NCBI GenBank assembly: GCA_945861865.1
Contig: CAMAWN010000047.1
Location: 1 to 33,750, forward strand
DNA: 33,750 nucleotides
Origin: Candidatus Kuenenia stuttgartensis
GTDB taxonomy: Bacteria; Planctomycetota; Planctomycetia; Planctomycetales; Planctomycetaceae
Reading direction: 5' to 3'
Below are positions 8,160 through 14,110 of this stretch, one piece after another. Within the stretch, counting starts at the first letter, position 1. Each line of letters begins with the position of its first letter. Position numbers and translations under genes: made by a program. A model generated the notes under the pieces. The model did no database searches and had not been told where the DNA came from. It worked only from the letters and a program-made list of their open reading frames with translations.

Positions 8160-8420
8160 GATGCGTCTCGCGAATTTTGCCGAAGTCGAATTGACACGAT
8201 TTCGCAATTCGGTCTATCAATCGTCCGCTTGCTCGGCCGCACGGCAAAACAAGCATCCCTTCTCGTGCCTCCCCTCCGCCCATTCCGGGCCACTCCCTTC
8301 CGCAGCGTCGCGAACTTCGCCCCACTGCATCCTGTCTGAATCCGCCCTTCCCCTCCTTGAGTCAGCTTCTTGCATCCCCTCGTGACGGCATTCGTCCGTC
8401 AGAACCCCCGTCTGACTTTC
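8160..8420. other. Intergenic region before the regulator gene
   Basis: Pyrimidine-rich in its right half (many CCCTTC/CCCCTCC tracts). No convincing gene, promoter hexamers or terminator can be named. It presumably carries the promoter of the regulator/flagellar block. A TTG at 8370 would extend the regulator by 17 residues into this region, but the extension looks non-coding. Confidence 0.4.
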
Positions 8421-9908
8421 ATGGATCACGCCATGCACTCAAGCCCATTCCGTCCTGATTTCTCTTCGATAACAGCGGTCGCCGGCCGACTGTCCGCCAC
8501 CGCTCGCGTTTTGACGTGCATCTCGCACGCGACAATTCGCGCCGCACTCGAAAACTCTGCGGGAGCCTGCGTCTCGGCCGAACCAAGTCGGTCGCTGGAC
8601 CAAGCGACTGCACTGTTGCTTCGCGAGCCAACGCCGTTGGTGATCGTCGACGAGGCCACGTTGGTTGCCGCCAGCAACACAGACAATGGTTCGCGGCCGA
8701 TTCGAGATTTCGCGGCCGCACTGCTCGGCAACAGCGGCTACACGCAGTTGATTGTGGTTTCCGCGTCCTGCGACGCGTACACGCTGCCAAACGGTCTGCG
8801 TTCCGACGAGATCGCCGCGCGACTGACCTTGCTCACCGAAGAGGAACTCTCTGGAACCGCGTTGAACTCGATCATCGCGATGGCGATCCGACACGCCGAT
8901 TCGCAACAGTCGCAACGACAGACGGCGCGTCCGCAGTCGCGGACTCATTCGCTTCGCGAAGTTCTCGGTGGAAGTCCACGCATGGAAAAACTATTCGAGG
9001 CGATCGACGCCATTTCCGCTTGCGACACGCCAGTTTTGATCTGCGGCGAATCCGGCACCGGCACCAGCCTGCTGGCCAACGCGATCCATGATGGCAGTTC
9101 GCGATCGGCCCAGCCGTTCGTCCGAGTTCACAGCCGGTCGCTGACGTTGGAGCAACTCAACGATTTGCTGTGCGTTGATGTTCCCGATTCCGAAGTCGCG
9201 ACGCTGCCCATCGACACGCCGACGCGCCCCGCGGGCGGCACGTTGTTTCTCGACGAGTTCGACGAATTCCCGGTCGCGTTGCAGAAGCCGCTCTGTCGAT
9301 TCGTTGCTCGCCAACAAGAACTGTCGGACGGTTCACAAGGCCGGCATCGTTCGATCGCCCGCATCATCGCATCGACGCATCAGAATCTTGATTTGCCGAC
9401 TCGCCAAACACTCGGACTGGAGATCCTCGTTCGCGGATTGAACGCCGAGCGGCTGCTCGTTCCGCCGGTTCGCGAACGCCCTGAAGACATCGCACCTCTG
9501 GCCGAGCAATTCTTCATCCGCTGGGCGTTGCAGGAAGATCAACCCCATCCGCGACTGACTCGCAACGCGCTGGAATGTCTGAAGTCGCATTTCTGGACTG
9601 GCAACCTTCGCGAGCTGTACACCGTGCTGAGAAACACCGCGATCGTCGCCAACGGCAATGACATCACGGCCGACATGCTGCAACCGTGGCTCGCGAAAAC
9701 CGAGACCCCGGACGGCACCGAAGTCCCCCGCATGACACTGGCCGACATGGAGCGGCAGCTCATCGAAACCACGTTCACTCGCTGCGGCGGCAATCGCGAG
9801 AAGACCGCCAGTTCGCTCGACATCGGCCTCCGCACTCTCTCCGGCAAGCTCCGCGAATACGGCTACCCACCGCGCGGCGGGCCGGGATCAAATCTCAAAG
9901 CCGCGTAG
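8421..9908 (+). CDS. Degenerate NtrC-family (AAA+/Fis) regulator at the flagellar locus
   Basis: About 495 residues. The N-terminal ~170 form an alpha/beta domain that may be a degenerate receiver. A central AAA+ domain runs from about 185 to 430 and the C-terminal 45 residues are a Fis-type helix-turn-helix (CGGNREKTASSLDIGLRTLS). The AAA+ domain is abnormal. Walker A reads GESGTGTS (209-216), with Thr215 where Lys is required. The sigma-54 contact loop GAFTGA is missing, its place taken by VDVPDSEVATLPIDTPT. Walker B is intact (GGTLFLDE, D278-E279), and the arginine-finger block is altered to LGLEILVRGLN. It can probably still bind DNA, but sigma-54 activation by ATP hydrolysis is doubtful. 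It lies just upstream of fliF, so a flagellar regulatory or assembly role is inferred. The start could also be ATG 8433; neither has a strong ribosome site. Confidence 0.85.
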   Translation: MDHAMHSSPFRPDFSSITAVAGRLSATARVLTCISHATIRAALENSAGACVSAEPSRSLDQATALLLREPTPLVIVDEATLVAASNTDNGSRPIRDFAAALLGNSGYTQLIVVSASCDAYTLPNGLRSDEIAARLTLLTEEELSGTALNSIIAMAIRHADSQQSQRQTARPQSRTHSLREVLGGSPRMEKLFEAIDAISACDTPVLICGESGTGTSLLANAIHDGSSRSAQPFVRVHSRSLTLEQLNDLLCVDVPDSEVATLPIDTPTRPAGGTLFLDEFDEFPVALQKPLCRFVARQQELSDGSQGRHRSIARIIASTHQNLDLPTRQTLGLEILVRGLNAERLLVPPVRERPEDIAPLAEQFFIRWALQEDQPHPRLTRNALECLKSHFWTGNLRELYTVLRNTAIVANGNDITADMLQPWLAKTETPDGTEVPRMTLADMERQLIETTFTRCGGNREKTASSLDIGLRTLSGKLREYGYPPRGGPGSNLKAA

Positions 9909-10018: not shown

Positions 10019-11740
10019 ATGGACGAATTGCGACGACACGCGGCCCCACTCGTTGATCGTTGGCAGCGAACCGCTCGCGGCCAACAGGTCGCGATGGTCG
10101 CCGTGCTCGTCGCCAGCGCGGTCGGGTTTGTTTTTCTGCTGAACCGTTCGACCGAAAGCTGGCAGCCGATCGTCGATGGCCGAGAGTTCTCTGCATCGGA
10201 GTTCGCCGCCATTCGATCCGCCTGGCGACAAGCTGGCCTGAATTCGTTTCGGCGCGACGCTCGCAAATTGCTCGTTCCGTCGGCAGAGATGGCCCGCTAC
10301 ACCGCCGCGCTTCCGAAATCGCAACGAGACGACGGCGACTCCAGCAACGAGCGAGGTCCGTCAATTGCAACGGCCAACCTCTTCACCAGCCACGAACAGT
10401 TTGAGCAACTCAAGGACACCGCGCTGCGAAACACAGTGGAACGACAGTTGAAGGCGATCCCCGCCATCGCCGATGCCGAGGTAAACTGGGCTCGCGGCAA
10501 GAGCCGTTCCGCGTTCTCTGGACGCTCGAAAGTGACTGCCACCATCAGCGTTCTGCCGCGAGACGGACACGACCTCACGCCGGAACTTGCGCAATCACTT
10601 CGAACCGCTGTCGCCGGCATGATTCCCGACCTCAGTGCGGAAGATATCGTCGTGCTCGACCAATCAACCGGCTTCGCGATGACCGGCGATTCCGAGCCAT
10701 TGTTCGTCGAACAACAACGCCGCCGCCAACAAGAACGACTCGCTCGGCAACTTGAATCGCGGATCGCCGCAGCTTTCGCACACATTCCGAATGCGACCGT
10801 GCAGGCCAATCTTGTGGAAGTGCCCCGCTCGACGAACCGCCACATTGCCGCGAAACCAATCTTCGGCTCGGCGGTCGTCTGGATGACGGATGTTCCGGAC
10901 AATCTTGTGGAGTTCTCGCCGCTGGCCTTCACGGACGGCAGCACCCCGCCGCTGTCGATGGCGACAGACTCCGCCTGTTCCGTCGCGTGGCACATCGCCG
11001 TTCAGATTCCGCAAATTTATTTTGACGCCCACATCGCCCAGCAGTCCTTGTCCGCTGAGCATCGCACTACGCAACTCGACGACCTCTGCGATGCGGAATA
11101 CGCTCGCCTGCAACTCGTCGTGCGAAACCTTCTGCCGCCCGAGGCGACGCTCGCCGAGTTGTCGATCGTTCCGAGCGTCGCTAACACGAACGTGACTCCA
11201 CCTGCGGTCTCTTTCGCCGCCTGGCCACATGTCGCGTGCGGATTTTTCGCCGTGCTGTGTCTCACGGTCGTCGCAAGTCGTTGGCGAGCAGAAGGTGTTA
11301 ACCCTCCGCGGGATCGTTCGTCATTGGATTCCGAATCCCTCGGAGGGTTAACACCTTCCGCGCGCCAAGACAAAGACACGATCATCACACCACCAACTTC
11401 GACCGAACCGCTCACCGACCTCGCTCGTCTGCAACAACTCGATCTGCAACCGCTTGCTGATGCGATACGACACGAGCGTCCACAAGCCATCGCAGTCTTG
11501 CTGACTCGCTTTCCGACGCGGCTCGCCTCGGCTTGCTTGTCGCAATTGACATCGTCCTTGCAGACCGACGTGATCCGCCGCCTCAAGTCACTCGGCGAAG
11601 TTCCCGACGAACTCGTTGCGGAAATCGCTCACTCCGTCTGCCAACGGATGGCCCCTGCCACTGCGACGATCAGCCACGAACCGACCAATCGCATCGCCCA
11701 TCTGCTGCCAGAAACCGTGACGCAAAGGGCCATTGCATGA
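10019..11740 (+). CDS. fliF: FliF M-ring protein fused to a FliG-middle-like domain
   Basis: A 573-residue protein that builds the membrane (MS) ring of the flagellar basal body. Helix 1 is at about 24-42 (VAMVAVLVASAVGFVFLL), the YscJ/FliF ring-building domains at about 45-390, and helix 2 at about 398-418 (WPHVACGFFAVLCLTVVA). Canonical FliF ends in a short cytoplasmic tail that binds FliG. Here the tail carries a palindromic insertion (421-450) and then about 85 residues (LADAIRHERPQAIAVLLTRF ... DVIRRLKSLGEVPDELV) matching the FliG middle domain, including an ERPQ version of its EHPQ motif. The torque-bearing FliG C-terminal domain is absent. No separate fliG lies between this gene and fliH. 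ATG 10019 is chosen because it precedes helix 1 at the normal distance; the open frame reaches 9686 but overlaps the regulator gene. The stop overlaps the fliH start as ATGA. Confidence 0.85.
   Translation: MDELRRHAAPLVDRWQRTARGQQVAMVAVLVASAVGFVFLLNRSTESWQPIVDGREFSASEFAAIRSAWRQAGLNSFRRDARKLLVPSAEMARYTAALPKSQRDDGDSSNERGPSIATANLFTSHEQFEQLKDTALRNTVERQLKAIPAIADAEVNWARGKSRSAFSGRSKVTATISVLPRDGHDLTPELAQSLRTAVAGMIPDLSAEDIVVLDQSTGFAMTGDSEPLFVEQQRRRQQERLARQLESRIAAAFAHIPNATVQANLVEVPRSTNRHIAAKPIFGSAVVWMTDVPDNLVEFSPLAFTDGSTPPLSMATDSACSVAWHIAVQIPQIYFDAHIAQQSLSAEHRTTQLDDLCDAEYARLQLVVRNLLPPEATLAELSIVPSVANTNVTPPAVSFAAWPHVACGFFAVLCLTVVASRWRAEGVNPPRDRSSLDSESLGGLTPSARQDKDTIITPPTSTEPLTDLARLQQLDLQPLADAIRHERPQAIAVLLTRFPTRLASACLSQLTSSLQTDVIRRLKSLGEVPDELVAEIAHSVCQRMAPATATISHEPTNRIAHLLPETVTQRAIA
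11281..11368. repeat. In-frame 88-bp palindromic repeat inside fliF
   Basis: Arms 11281-11314 and 11335-11368 (core AAGGTGTTAACCCTCCG) match at 31 of 34 positions as an inverted repeat around a 20-base loop. It lies in the cytoplasmic linker of FliF, between the second membrane helix and the FliG-like domain, and is translated as residues 421-450. Because it is palindromic, both strands read almost the same peptide (RAEGVNPPRD...GGLTPSARQ). It adds no stop and keeps the frame. Confidence 0.85.
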
Positions 11741-12318
11741 CGACCGCCGCACGCATCCCCAAGGCCGATCACCGCAACAACACCGCACGACGAGTCTGTT
11801 TGTCTGACTTGTCAGAGACGACCTCTTCGCGTTTCGACTCCGCCATTTTCGAACCGCTGGTGCTACCGGCTGCTCTCTCGCCGACACGAGAGTCGCACGC
11901 CGACACTCGTTTGCAGTCCGCTCTTGCCGCAGTGCAAACCGTCGCCGACCAATTGCATGCCCAACGAGACCAATGGCTCGATCAGTGCCAACACGAGACC
12001 GTCCGACTCGGGGTTGCCATCGCCGAACGCCTGTTGCGCCGCACGCTCGCCGTTCAACCCGAAGCCGTTCTCGATTTGATTCGCTCCGCCCTCGACTGGT
12101 CCGTCGGTGCGGATCGCTTGCGAGTCCGCCTGCACCCTGCCGATGCGGACCTGGTCGAGTCTGCGGCACAACCTCTCGAAGCGGCCCGCGAAATCGAATT
12201 CCTCCCGGACGACTCGCTCACGCGCGGCGATTGCGTCGTCGAAACACCGAGCGGTCAAACGGACGCGCGGCTCGAAGTCATTCTGCAACGCATCACCGAT
12301 GAACTGCTCGCGGAGTGA
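11737..12318 (+). CDS. fliH: FliH, negative regulator of the flagellar export ATPase
   Basis: A 193-residue cytoplasmic protein. FliH forms a dimer that binds and restrains the FliI ATPase and docks it at the export gate. The N-terminal ~50 residues are poorly conserved. A helical, Gln-rich part at about 60-100 (LAAVQTVADQLHAQRDQWLD) resembles the FliH/YscL stalk. The C-terminal domain ends with GDCVVETPSGQTDARLEVIL, matching the family's conserved G-x-ET-x-G-x-D-A-x-LE-x-Q/L pattern. The ATG overlaps the fliF stop (ATGA), and the TGA overlaps a possible GTG start of fliI, so translation of the three genes is probably coupled. Length and position between fliF and fliI fit FliH well, despite the absence of a separate fliG. 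Confidence 0.82.
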   Translation: MTTAARIPKADHRNNTARRVCLSDLSETTSSRFDSAIFEPLVLPAALSPTRESHADTRLQSALAAVQTVADQLHAQRDQWLDQCQHETVRLGVAIAERLLRRTLAVQPEAVLDLIRSALDWSVGADRLRVRLHPADADLVESAAQPLEAAREIEFLPDDSLTRGDCVVETPSGQTDARLEVILQRITDELLAE

Positions 12319-12326
12319 ACTCAACA

Positions 12327-13631
12327 ATGCTCGCCTTCGCCGAACGAATTTCGGAAATCATTCCGGTCGGACTGACCGGCCGAGTCACTCGGCTGAGCGG
12401 CCTGACCATCGCCGCCGCAGATTTCCCGGTGCCGGTCGGTGCATTGTGCCGCGTTCATCGAGGTCCACAACAACTCGCCGAAGCCGAGGTGGTCGGCTTT
12501 CGCGATCAGGAAACTTTGCTCCTCCCGCTCGGTGACATTGCCGGCCTGCGTCGAGGCGATTCGGTTTCGCTGCGAAACTCCGCTCCGCAAGTTTGCGTCG
12601 GCGAACAGATGCTCGGCCGAGTCTTCAACGCTCGCGGCGAAATCCTCGATGACGGCGAGAAGCCCTCACTGCCACATCGCCGTTCGTTGTACGGCGCACC
12701 GCCCGCGTCGATGAGTCGGCCACGAATCACCGAACCACTCGCCACCGGCATCCGCTCGATCGACGCACTGCTGACCTGCGGCAAAGGCCAGCGCGTCGGC
12801 TTGTTCGCCGGAAGCGGTGTCGGCAAGAGCACGTTGCTCGGCCAGATCGCTCGCGGCAGCCAGGCGGACGTCAACGTCGTCGTGCTCGTCGGCGAACGCG
12901 GCCGTGAAGTCCGTGAGTTCCTTGAAAAGTCTCTCGGTCCCGATGGCCTGAGCCGCAGTGTGGTCATTGTCGCGACCGGCGATGAAGCACCGACACTTCG
13001 ATTACGAGCCGCTCACTTCGGAACGACTGTCGCCGAGTTCTTTCGCGATCAAGGCCGTGATGTGCTGCTGCTCATCGATTCGCTGACTCGCTTCGCTCAC
13101 GCCCAACGCGAAGTCGGCTTCGCCGCCGGAGAACCTCCCGCCGCTCGCGGATTTCCCCCCAGCGTTTTCAGCGTGTTGCCGAAACTCGTCGAACGGACCG
13201 GCCACTCGGAGTCCGGCAGCATCACCGGCCTGTACACGGTCCTCGTCGATGGTGACGACTTCAACGAACCGATCGCCGATGCGGTGCGCGGTCTGCTTGA
13301 CGGCCACTGGGTTTTGTCACGACGACTCGCCGAGCAAGCTCATTGGCCGGCCCTCGACGTTCTCGCCAGCATCAGCCGCGTCATGCCCGATGTCACTTCG
13401 CCACAGCATCGTGCCATTGCTGACCAGTTGAAACGAGTCCTCGCCGCGTACCGCCATCACGAAGACTTGATCTCCGTCGGAGCCTATCAACCCGGCTCAC
13501 ACTCGCTGGTCGATACCGCGATCCGCGAGCGGCTTCGCTGGACCGAGTTCCTCCAGCAGTCGCTCGATCAACCGACAACCTTGCCAGACACGCTCGCTTG
13601 GCTGCGGCGGCTTACTGGCCAACTCTCTTGA
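12327..13631 (+). CDS. fliI: FliI, flagellum-specific export ATPase
   Basis: A 434-residue ATPase of the F1-beta/FliI/YscN family that energises unloading of flagellar subunits at the export gate. Walker A is AGSGVGKST (161-169). Walker B is LLLIDSLTRFA with Asp251. The FliI/YscN stretch REVGFAAGEPPAARGFPPSV and the downstream TGLYTVLVDGDD are intact. The N-terminal beta-barrel domain is at about 15-90, and the C-terminal helical domain follows from about 340. ATG 12327 is chosen because GGAG sits 11 bases upstream. GTG 12315, overlapping the fliH stop, is a real alternative that would add four residues. All catalytic residues are present, so the enzyme should be active. fliJ begins within 30 bp of its stop. 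Confidence 0.96.
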   Translation: MLAFAERISEIIPVGLTGRVTRLSGLTIAAADFPVPVGALCRVHRGPQQLAEAEVVGFRDQETLLLPLGDIAGLRRGDSVSLRNSAPQVCVGEQMLGRVFNARGEILDDGEKPSLPHRRSLYGAPPASMSRPRITEPLATGIRSIDALLTCGKGQRVGLFAGSGVGKSTLLGQIARGSQADVNVVVLVGERGREVREFLEKSLGPDGLSRSVVIVATGDEAPTLRLRAAHFGTTVAEFFRDQGRDVLLLIDSLTRFAHAQREVGFAAGEPPAARGFPPSVFSVLPKLVERTGHSESGSITGLYTVLVDGDDFNEPIADAVRGLLDGHWVLSRRLAEQAHWPALDVLASISRVMPDVTSPQHRAIADQLKRVLAAYRHHEDLISVGAYQPGSHSLVDTAIRERLRWTEFLQQSLDQPTTLPDTLAWLRRLTGQLS

Positions 13632-13657: not shown

Positions 13658-14110
13658 ATGTCATCGCTCACGCCTTGGTTGACCACGTTGCAGCGCGTTC
13701 GCGAGCATCGCCGTAACACCGCGCTGCAATCGCTTGCTCAAAGCTTGCAAACGGCTAAGAAAATTCGAGACACGACCATTCGCGTTGAGTCCATGATTTC
13801 AAGCCTGGGACAAGCTCTGCAGCAAAGCAACCATGCCGGACGACTGGACTCGGAACGAATGCGGCAGATTCGCCAACACCGCGACGACTTGCGGTCTCAT
13901 TTGACTGATCTCAACAATCAGCAGACGTCCGCCAACGCCACTGTCCACCAGGCACAGGTCAACGCGACCGCCAAAGACTCGGAGGCCGAAGTCTTGAGGC
14001 GTCTGCAAGATCGGCTCGATTCCACTCACCGGCAGGCTCAACGACGTCGGGACGAACAAACTCCGCTAGATGTCGCCGTCTCGCTTTGCAACGAGCAGGT
14101 TTCCGGCTAG
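13658..14110 (+). CDS. fliJ: FliJ-like export chaperone / ATPase stalk protein
   Basis: A 150-residue, almost entirely helical coiled-coil protein (RVREHRRNTALQSLAQSLQ, and QHRDDLRSHLTDLNNQQ), rich in Arg, Gln, Asp and Ser and with no hydrophobic segment. FliJ proteins are about 145-150 residues and work as an antiparallel coiled coil inserted in the FliI ring; they diverge so much that sequence identity is rarely useful. The call rests on length, helical pattern and position immediately after fliI. ATG 13658 has GGAA eight bases upstream. A TTG at 13628, overlapping the fliI stop, would add ten residues. Confidence 0.75.
   Translation: MSSLTPWLTTLQRVREHRRNTALQSLAQSLQTAKKIRDTTIRVESMISSLGQALQQSNHAGRLDSERMRQIRQHRDDLRSHLTDLNNQQTSANATVHQAQVNATAKDSEAEVLRRLQDRLDSTHRQAQRRRDEQTPLDVAVSLCNEQVSG

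Follow-up and report, generated by a model that had tools for sequence, protein, structure and literature searches.

The window, by which we mean the whole stretch of 33,750 nucleotides analysed here (Candidatus Kuenenia stuttgartensis, contig CAMAWN010000047.1), carries a run of flagellar genes behind a transcriptional regulator (Table 1). The first gene of this run encodes a 573-aa protein, in which Pfam found YscJ_FliF at residues 59-216 (1.1e-14, over the cut-off) and FliG_M at residues 479-543 (2.5e-12; 51.1 bits for the tail alone against a cut-off of 25). The FliG C-terminal torque domain, which the original prediction had described as missing, is indeed not there: FliG_C (PF01706) reached only 12.8 bits (cut-off 23.3), on residues of the M domain. 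FliG_N likewise stayed below its cut-off of 25, with 17.3 bits (21.3 for the tail alone) on the same residues as FliG_M. The NCBIfam fliG and fliF equivalogs also matched the fusion below their whole-protein cut-offs, as is expected when only parts of the proteins are present. The gene probably begins with the ATG at 10019, since MDELRR is kept in five aligned genus members (the fifth included with an upstream extension); the reading frame is already open from 9686.

Table 1. Features of the fusion gene and its neighbours (positions in the window; residues of the 573-aa protein)
Feature	Position	Strand	Basis
Sigma-54-dependent regulator, FleQ/NtrC type	8370..9908	+	Pfam Sigma54_activat, HTH_8
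fliF::fliG_M fusion gene, 573 aa	10019..11740	+	ORF, Pfam, conservation, predicted fold
First membrane helix (20-42)	10076..10144	+	helix in AF2 model; membrane nature read from sequence
RBM1 (48-96)	10160..10306	+	Pfam YscJ_FliF 59-216; model
RBM2 (125-221)	10391..10681	+	model; Foldseek to FliF ring chains
RBM3-like region (226-386), disordered loop 273-317	10694..11176	+	model
Second membrane helix (402-425)	11222..11293	+	model; membrane nature read from sequence
34-nt inverted repeat, 20-nt loop, within linker	11281..11368	.	read through in frame
Linker (426-466), weakly constrained, mostly disordered	11294..11416	+	pLDDT <50 at 420-463; pN/pS 0.71
FliG middle (ARM_M) domain (467-544)	11417..11650	+	Pfam, fold, conservation
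C-terminal tail with N-R-I-x-H-L motif	11657..11737	+	motif kept in 11/11 aligned rows
fliH	11737..12318	+	Pfam FliH 4.6e-22; start overlaps fliF stop (ATGA)
fliI, export ATPase	12315..13631	+	Pfam ATP-synt_ab 3.3e-85, T3SS_ATPase_C 6.9e-21
fliJ-like	13658..14110	+	position; Pfam FliJ 0.016, below cut-off

Structure prediction, which had been proposed as a check, gave a FliG-like helical fold in the tail. The AF2 model of the whole protein (19-row alignment; mean pLDDT 70, pTM 0.34) runs through TM1, RBM1, RBM2, an RBM3-like region, TM2 and a disordered linker to a helical domain at residues 467-544, where pLDDT is about 90. Foldseek matched the model to FliF ring chains and its last domain to 8wo5_B5 (76 columns, 1.5 A, 29% identity) and 8wiw_3 (78 columns, 1.7 A, 28% identity), both from flagellar C-ring/motor structures and taken by us to be FliG chains. 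When the tail was modelled by itself the result was less good (pLDDT 65); the 14 best PDB matches of that model were FliG or FliG-holding complexes, none reaching an E-value of 0.001. Profile score and fold together bear out the reading of this gene as a FliF-FliG-middle fusion. Flagellar FliF has a beta-collar insert in the RBM3 region, and the disordered loop at 273-317 would sit where that insert belongs.

Judged from sequence comparison, the fused FliG_M domain is under purifying selection. Across the 36 pairs formed by nine genus-type rows (of eleven; the distant L144 and L145 were left out), the median pN/pS was 0.17 for FliG_M, 0.14 for RBM2, 0.26 for TM1-RBM1, 0.39 for RBM3 and 0.28 for the C-tail, while the linker reached 0.71. 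The arms of the inverted repeat in the linker are 91% complementary, and its exact 14-nt core occurs in 4 of 236 loci, namely at the same place in L001, L003 and L042 and in a near relative, L137; it looks like a REP-type element at a spot where the protein tolerates insertion.

Because the fliH start at 11737 lies inside the fliF stop, there is no room for a fliG between fliF and fliH, which agrees with the gap noted in the original prediction. A sigma-54-dependent regulator also lies directly upstream of the fusion in G340, G364, G392 and G382, as shown by synteny. A search of the window for sigma-54 promoters, using a consensus pattern, gave three pattern matches against 7.1 expected and hence no support for such a promoter.

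The rest of the machine was sought in the own genome (G000; 90% complete, 351 contigs). No second FliG_M passed the cut-off there (next best match 12.1 bits), nor did any FliG_C. In the congener G340, which is 99% complete, a whole-protein search gave the fusion as the sole match among the matches listed, and FliG_C (0.217), rods and flagellin were likewise not over the cut-off. The suggestion that a separate FliG docks on the fused domain therefore found no support in either genome. As for the axial parts, rods gave zero matches at E 1 in the own genome and flagellin stayed under the cut-off (best 0.51). The best MotA_N match there was 0.60; this absence carries little weight, since just 5 of the 28 panel genomes score above the cut-off of this model though 12 of them have rods and flagellin. 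The export apparatus, on the other hand, was found on several contigs. A single FlhA (Pfam) lies on contig C36, adjoining FlhF and FlhG (both by reading), and a protein with FliM and FliMN_C domains (Pfam) lies on C8. Contig C68 carries a FliN-FliO fusion followed by FliP and FliQ (by reading) and then FliR and FlhB (Pfam). This FlhB aligns to its profile only as far as position 240 of 335 and thus has no C-terminal domain, a second hallmark that sits on another contig than the fusion gene. Hence the genome has the export gate and the ATPase, with flagellar axial parts not found over the cut-off, which is the picture of a non-flagellar type III secretion system (T3SS) in the broad sense. The FliN-FliO protein (359 aa, L009:8986-10065; Pfam FliMN_C, FliO) is a second fusion in the same machine; several other genera have FliN and FliO as two adjoining frames at that place.

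Matches to the fusion protein, in its FliF part, its FliG part or both, were found in at least 103 of 120 genomes of the family Planctomycetaceae, and among the matches listed many genomes have a FliF frame of 515-577 codons with FliG in a separate frame of 320-390 codons. A scan of named genomes gave 20 loci, all from MAGs, ten of which (L137-L146, 38-92% identity) are genus-type fusions with FliG M alone; further matches came from Gimesia, Schlesneria, Planctomicrobium and Planctomycetaceae. Some of the names (LacPavin, Erken) suggest lakes as the source. The names of genus members conflict (Kuenenia versus Planctomyces sp. SH-PL62) and look like binning labels. A viral relative was searched for and none was found.

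A short FlhB, defined as a match from the profile start that ends at or before position 254, occurs in 28 of the 120 family genomes (109 with any FlhB match); this count excludes the divergent matches of G316 and G352 (profile 10-217 and 8-216) as well as the incomplete matches in G373, G378 and G323. FliF and FliG are fused in 21 of these 28 genomes and separate in five (G321, G388, G396, G357, G301), while no FliG part was detected behind FliF in G105 and the FliF/FliG region of G333 is cut by a contig end. As determined by Pfam for eleven fusions and by a profile built from 30 planctomycete FliGs for the rest, FliG content ranges from N+M+C in one (G376) through M+C in 13 (G365, G341, G330, G354, G297, G318, G385, G339, G363, G389, G360, G291, G300) to only C detected in two (G266, G087) and only M in five, the latter being the present genus (G000, G340, G364, G392, G382). 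One further fusion was found in another family of the same class (G274). The gene runs FliN-FliP-FliQ-FliR-FlhB and FliF-FliH-FliI are conserved in many of the genera read. The divergent FlhBs of G316 (L235, L236; its FliF frame runs off the contig) and G352, whose matches end near profile position 217, possibly belong to another, more diverged system of the same sort.

FlhB length and axial parts were compared in a panel of 28 genomes, which were picked partly for their fusions. Rods and flagellin were over the cut-off in 12 panel genomes, 11 of which have a full FlhB, while all 16 genomes without rods over the cut-off have a short FlhB and none a full one. The exception, G364, belongs to the present genus: flagellin, rods and a separate FliG are there, but the FlhB search found just the short form. 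Both FlhB kinds occur in G382, G365, G291, G323, G087 and G376 (the short copy of G323 is cut by a contig end). In G364 and G382, which have flagellin and rods, FliF and FliG also occur as separate proteins, encoded on different contigs from the fusion gene.

Self-cleavage and the switching of substrates are functions of the C-terminal domain of FlhB. The cleavage-site motif NP[TE]H was present in none of the 25 short FlhBs read (out of 28) and in 10 of 11 full ones, the full FlhB of G283 being without it. In G354 and G385, which have a short FlhB, matches to the FlhB C-domain lie in frames of about 950 codons (G354:C265:4577-4849, 32.1 bits; G385:C1072:33686-33934, 22.6 bits), so in these two genomes the domain may have been relocated and not lost. 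Beside a full FlhB, G303, G305 and G315 have small extra frames (111-134 codons) whose match is confined to the C-terminal part.

The torque-making residues of FliG (E. coli numbering, checked on MG1655) were compared between 39 FliGs taken as ordinary flagellar ones, comprising the 30 best phylum-search matches and nine from the family, and 24 second-system proteins. The latter are five separate FliGs and 19 fusions, including G274 as well as G373 and G323, whose FlhBs are cut by contig ends; L148, which reads like G388, was dropped, and genus members do not enter the count as their fusion has no FliG_C. Arginine at 281 was present in 39/39 ordinary FliGs versus 2/24 second-system proteins, an acidic residue at 288 in 39/39 versus 1/24, lysine at 264 in 36/39 versus 8/24, and an acidic residue at 289 in 36/39 versus 9/24. 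R297, found in 32/39 ordinary FliGs, is still retained in 20/24 second-system proteins, which indicates that their FliG C domain is correctly aligned. G301 (L229, L230) has a short FlhB and a separate FliG that lacks R281 but keeps the acidic residues at 288/289, and could represent an early stage of conversion; in the genome scan its FlhB match contains one TGA.

Domain content, absences over the cut-off, conservation, predicted fold and the series of intermediates lead us to propose, with a probability of roughly 0.78, that the fusion gene is part of a flagellum-derived, non-rotating type III secretion system. The other alternative suggested originally was that the rotor is built differently in this lineage. 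The building part of that idea stands, in that the MS ring carries a FliG domain as a fixed part of its own chain; the rotor part probably does not, and a non-flagellar export machine is the likelier product, because flagellin and rods are not over the cut-off in the own genome and in G340 and because the relatives that keep FliG_C mostly lack the torque residues. In the proposed system, FliF would form a membrane ring around the FliPQR-FlhA-FlhB export gate, and the C-terminal FliG middle domain would stand in for the usual FliF_C/FliG_N contact. This domain would anchor the FliM/FliN cytoplasmic ring, and thereby the FliHIJ ATPase complex, beneath the base ring. Lacking the FliG torque domain, rod, hook, filament and FlhB C-terminal domain, such a machine would export one substrate class and would not rotate.

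Could the locus instead be a decaying relic, with the flagellum lost and the remaining genes on their way out? The loss of rods, filament and FliG parts and the long branches of several members are in line with this, but intact frames, pN/pS values of 0.14-0.39 on the folded parts (nine genus rows) and the gene runs conserved across genera argue against it, as does the persistence of these genes in several genomes that also possess another, fuller flagellar set; we regard decay as unlikely. Somewhat less probable still is a use of the export core in another envelope process, such as the control of pili, instead of secretion. For this there is a precedent in non-flagellated Lysobacter enzymogenes, whose flagellar export homologues are said to control pili in the available part of that report (PMC7277350); here, however, the whole gate and the ATPase are kept and not just some parts.

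A true flagellum with a streamlined rotor, whose torque comes from another protein and whose missing parts are too divergent or unassembled, appears very improbable. In its favour stand the retained FliM and FliN, the 90% completeness of the genome, the poor reliability of MotA_N as a marker in these genomes, and the flagellin and rods of the congeners G364 and G382. Nevertheless, both congeners have the separate FliF and FliG described above, the nearly complete G340 has no rods and no flagellin over the cut-off, and FlhB is without its C-terminal domain.

The non-rotating secretion system would have been derived from the family's own flagellum by step-wise loss. The fusion FliFs branch with the family-type flagellar FliF, and the separate flagellar FliFs of G364, G382, G291 and G087 (L133-L136) fall outside the clade of family-type flagellar FliFs and fusions. 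The family thus comprises two separate flagellar lineages, one of which branches at a distance from the family type in the FliF trees and was perhaps acquired by transfer. To place the conversions, a FliF tree of 33 rows and 300 columns, without several long branches, was used; 11 of its 14 rows taken as flagellar come from full-FlhB genomes and three (G338, G335, G375) from genomes without an FlhB match, and L062 (G357) and L070 (G301) were labelled by the short FlhB that is the only one in their genomes. Placement of all short-FlhB rows in one clade was rejected (p-AU 8.4e-5), the systems of genus g238 standing, with support 100/99, beside L067 (G329, full FlhB) and L066 (G375, no FlhB match), both taken as flagellar. 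Without g238, one clade was not rejected (p 0.29). A single origin of the short-FlhB systems was also rejected by the FlhB tree (p 0.015) and not rejected by a five-protein concatenation (p 0.31), which holds only four family-type flagellar rows. At least two conversions of a flagellum to a motorless system are therefore likely, and if so, the fusion also arose at least twice, because G376 is nested among unfused g238 members. We lean slightly towards the fuller statement that, within one family, the flagellum turned independently at least twice into a motorless T3SS via the same steps, namely axial loss, truncation of FlhB ahead of its switching domain, disappearance of the torque charges from FliG, and FliF-FliG fusion with pruning of FliG domains.

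Arguments on how a rotary motor turns into a secretion machine generally start from a single ancient event, the emergence of injectisomes. If the reading of at least two conversions is true, there is a non-flagellar T3SS line separate from injectisomes, with living intermediates. One family holds flagella, unfused short-FlhB systems and fusions that contain FliG entire, as M+C or as M only, which opens to study the sequence in which parts were lost. It also becomes possible to ask about the use of half a motor, a question that appears as a heading in the accessible part of a 2025 survey (PMC12199754), and the fusion isolates the smallest part of FliG that such a machine keeps. In the open PMC literature, outside which subscription papers mostly lie, we found no report of a FliF-FliG fusion in planctomycetes, nor of a planctomycete T3SS without a motor.

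The PVC group includes both Chlamydiae and Planctomycetes. A FliF-FliG_M fusion has been described in Chlamydiaceae, in the consulted part of Bergeron 2016 (PMC4768692), and as in the present genus the C-terminus of FliF is there fused to the FliG M region, in bacteria that have no flagella and few flagellar genes. In contrast, the chlamydial protein has about 330 aa and, according to the same text, is missing a portion of the SctJ region as well as the third domain, whereas FliF is full length here; Chlamydia also has an injectisome; and in the present family whole-FliG and M+C fusions occur as well. The Myxo-type non-flagellar T3SS (Abby and Rocha 2012, PMC3459982, seen in part) is similar in that the secretion apparatus, ATPase and inner ring are kept while rod and hook are missing. 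By that account it lacks Mot proteins and FliG and roots the injectisome tree, whereas the present system keeps a FliG domain plus FliM, FliN, FlhF and FlhG and branches with the family's own flagellar FliF; the part consulted names Planctomycetes among flagella only. Finally, the engineered FliF-FliG fusions of Salmonella and Vibrio resemble the present protein in being one chain, and rings form in them, as stated in the parts available (PMC4768692, PMC11481574). Salmonella flagella with such a fusion are said there still to assemble and rotate, whereas the fusion described here is natural and belongs to a genus in which it carries no torque domain.
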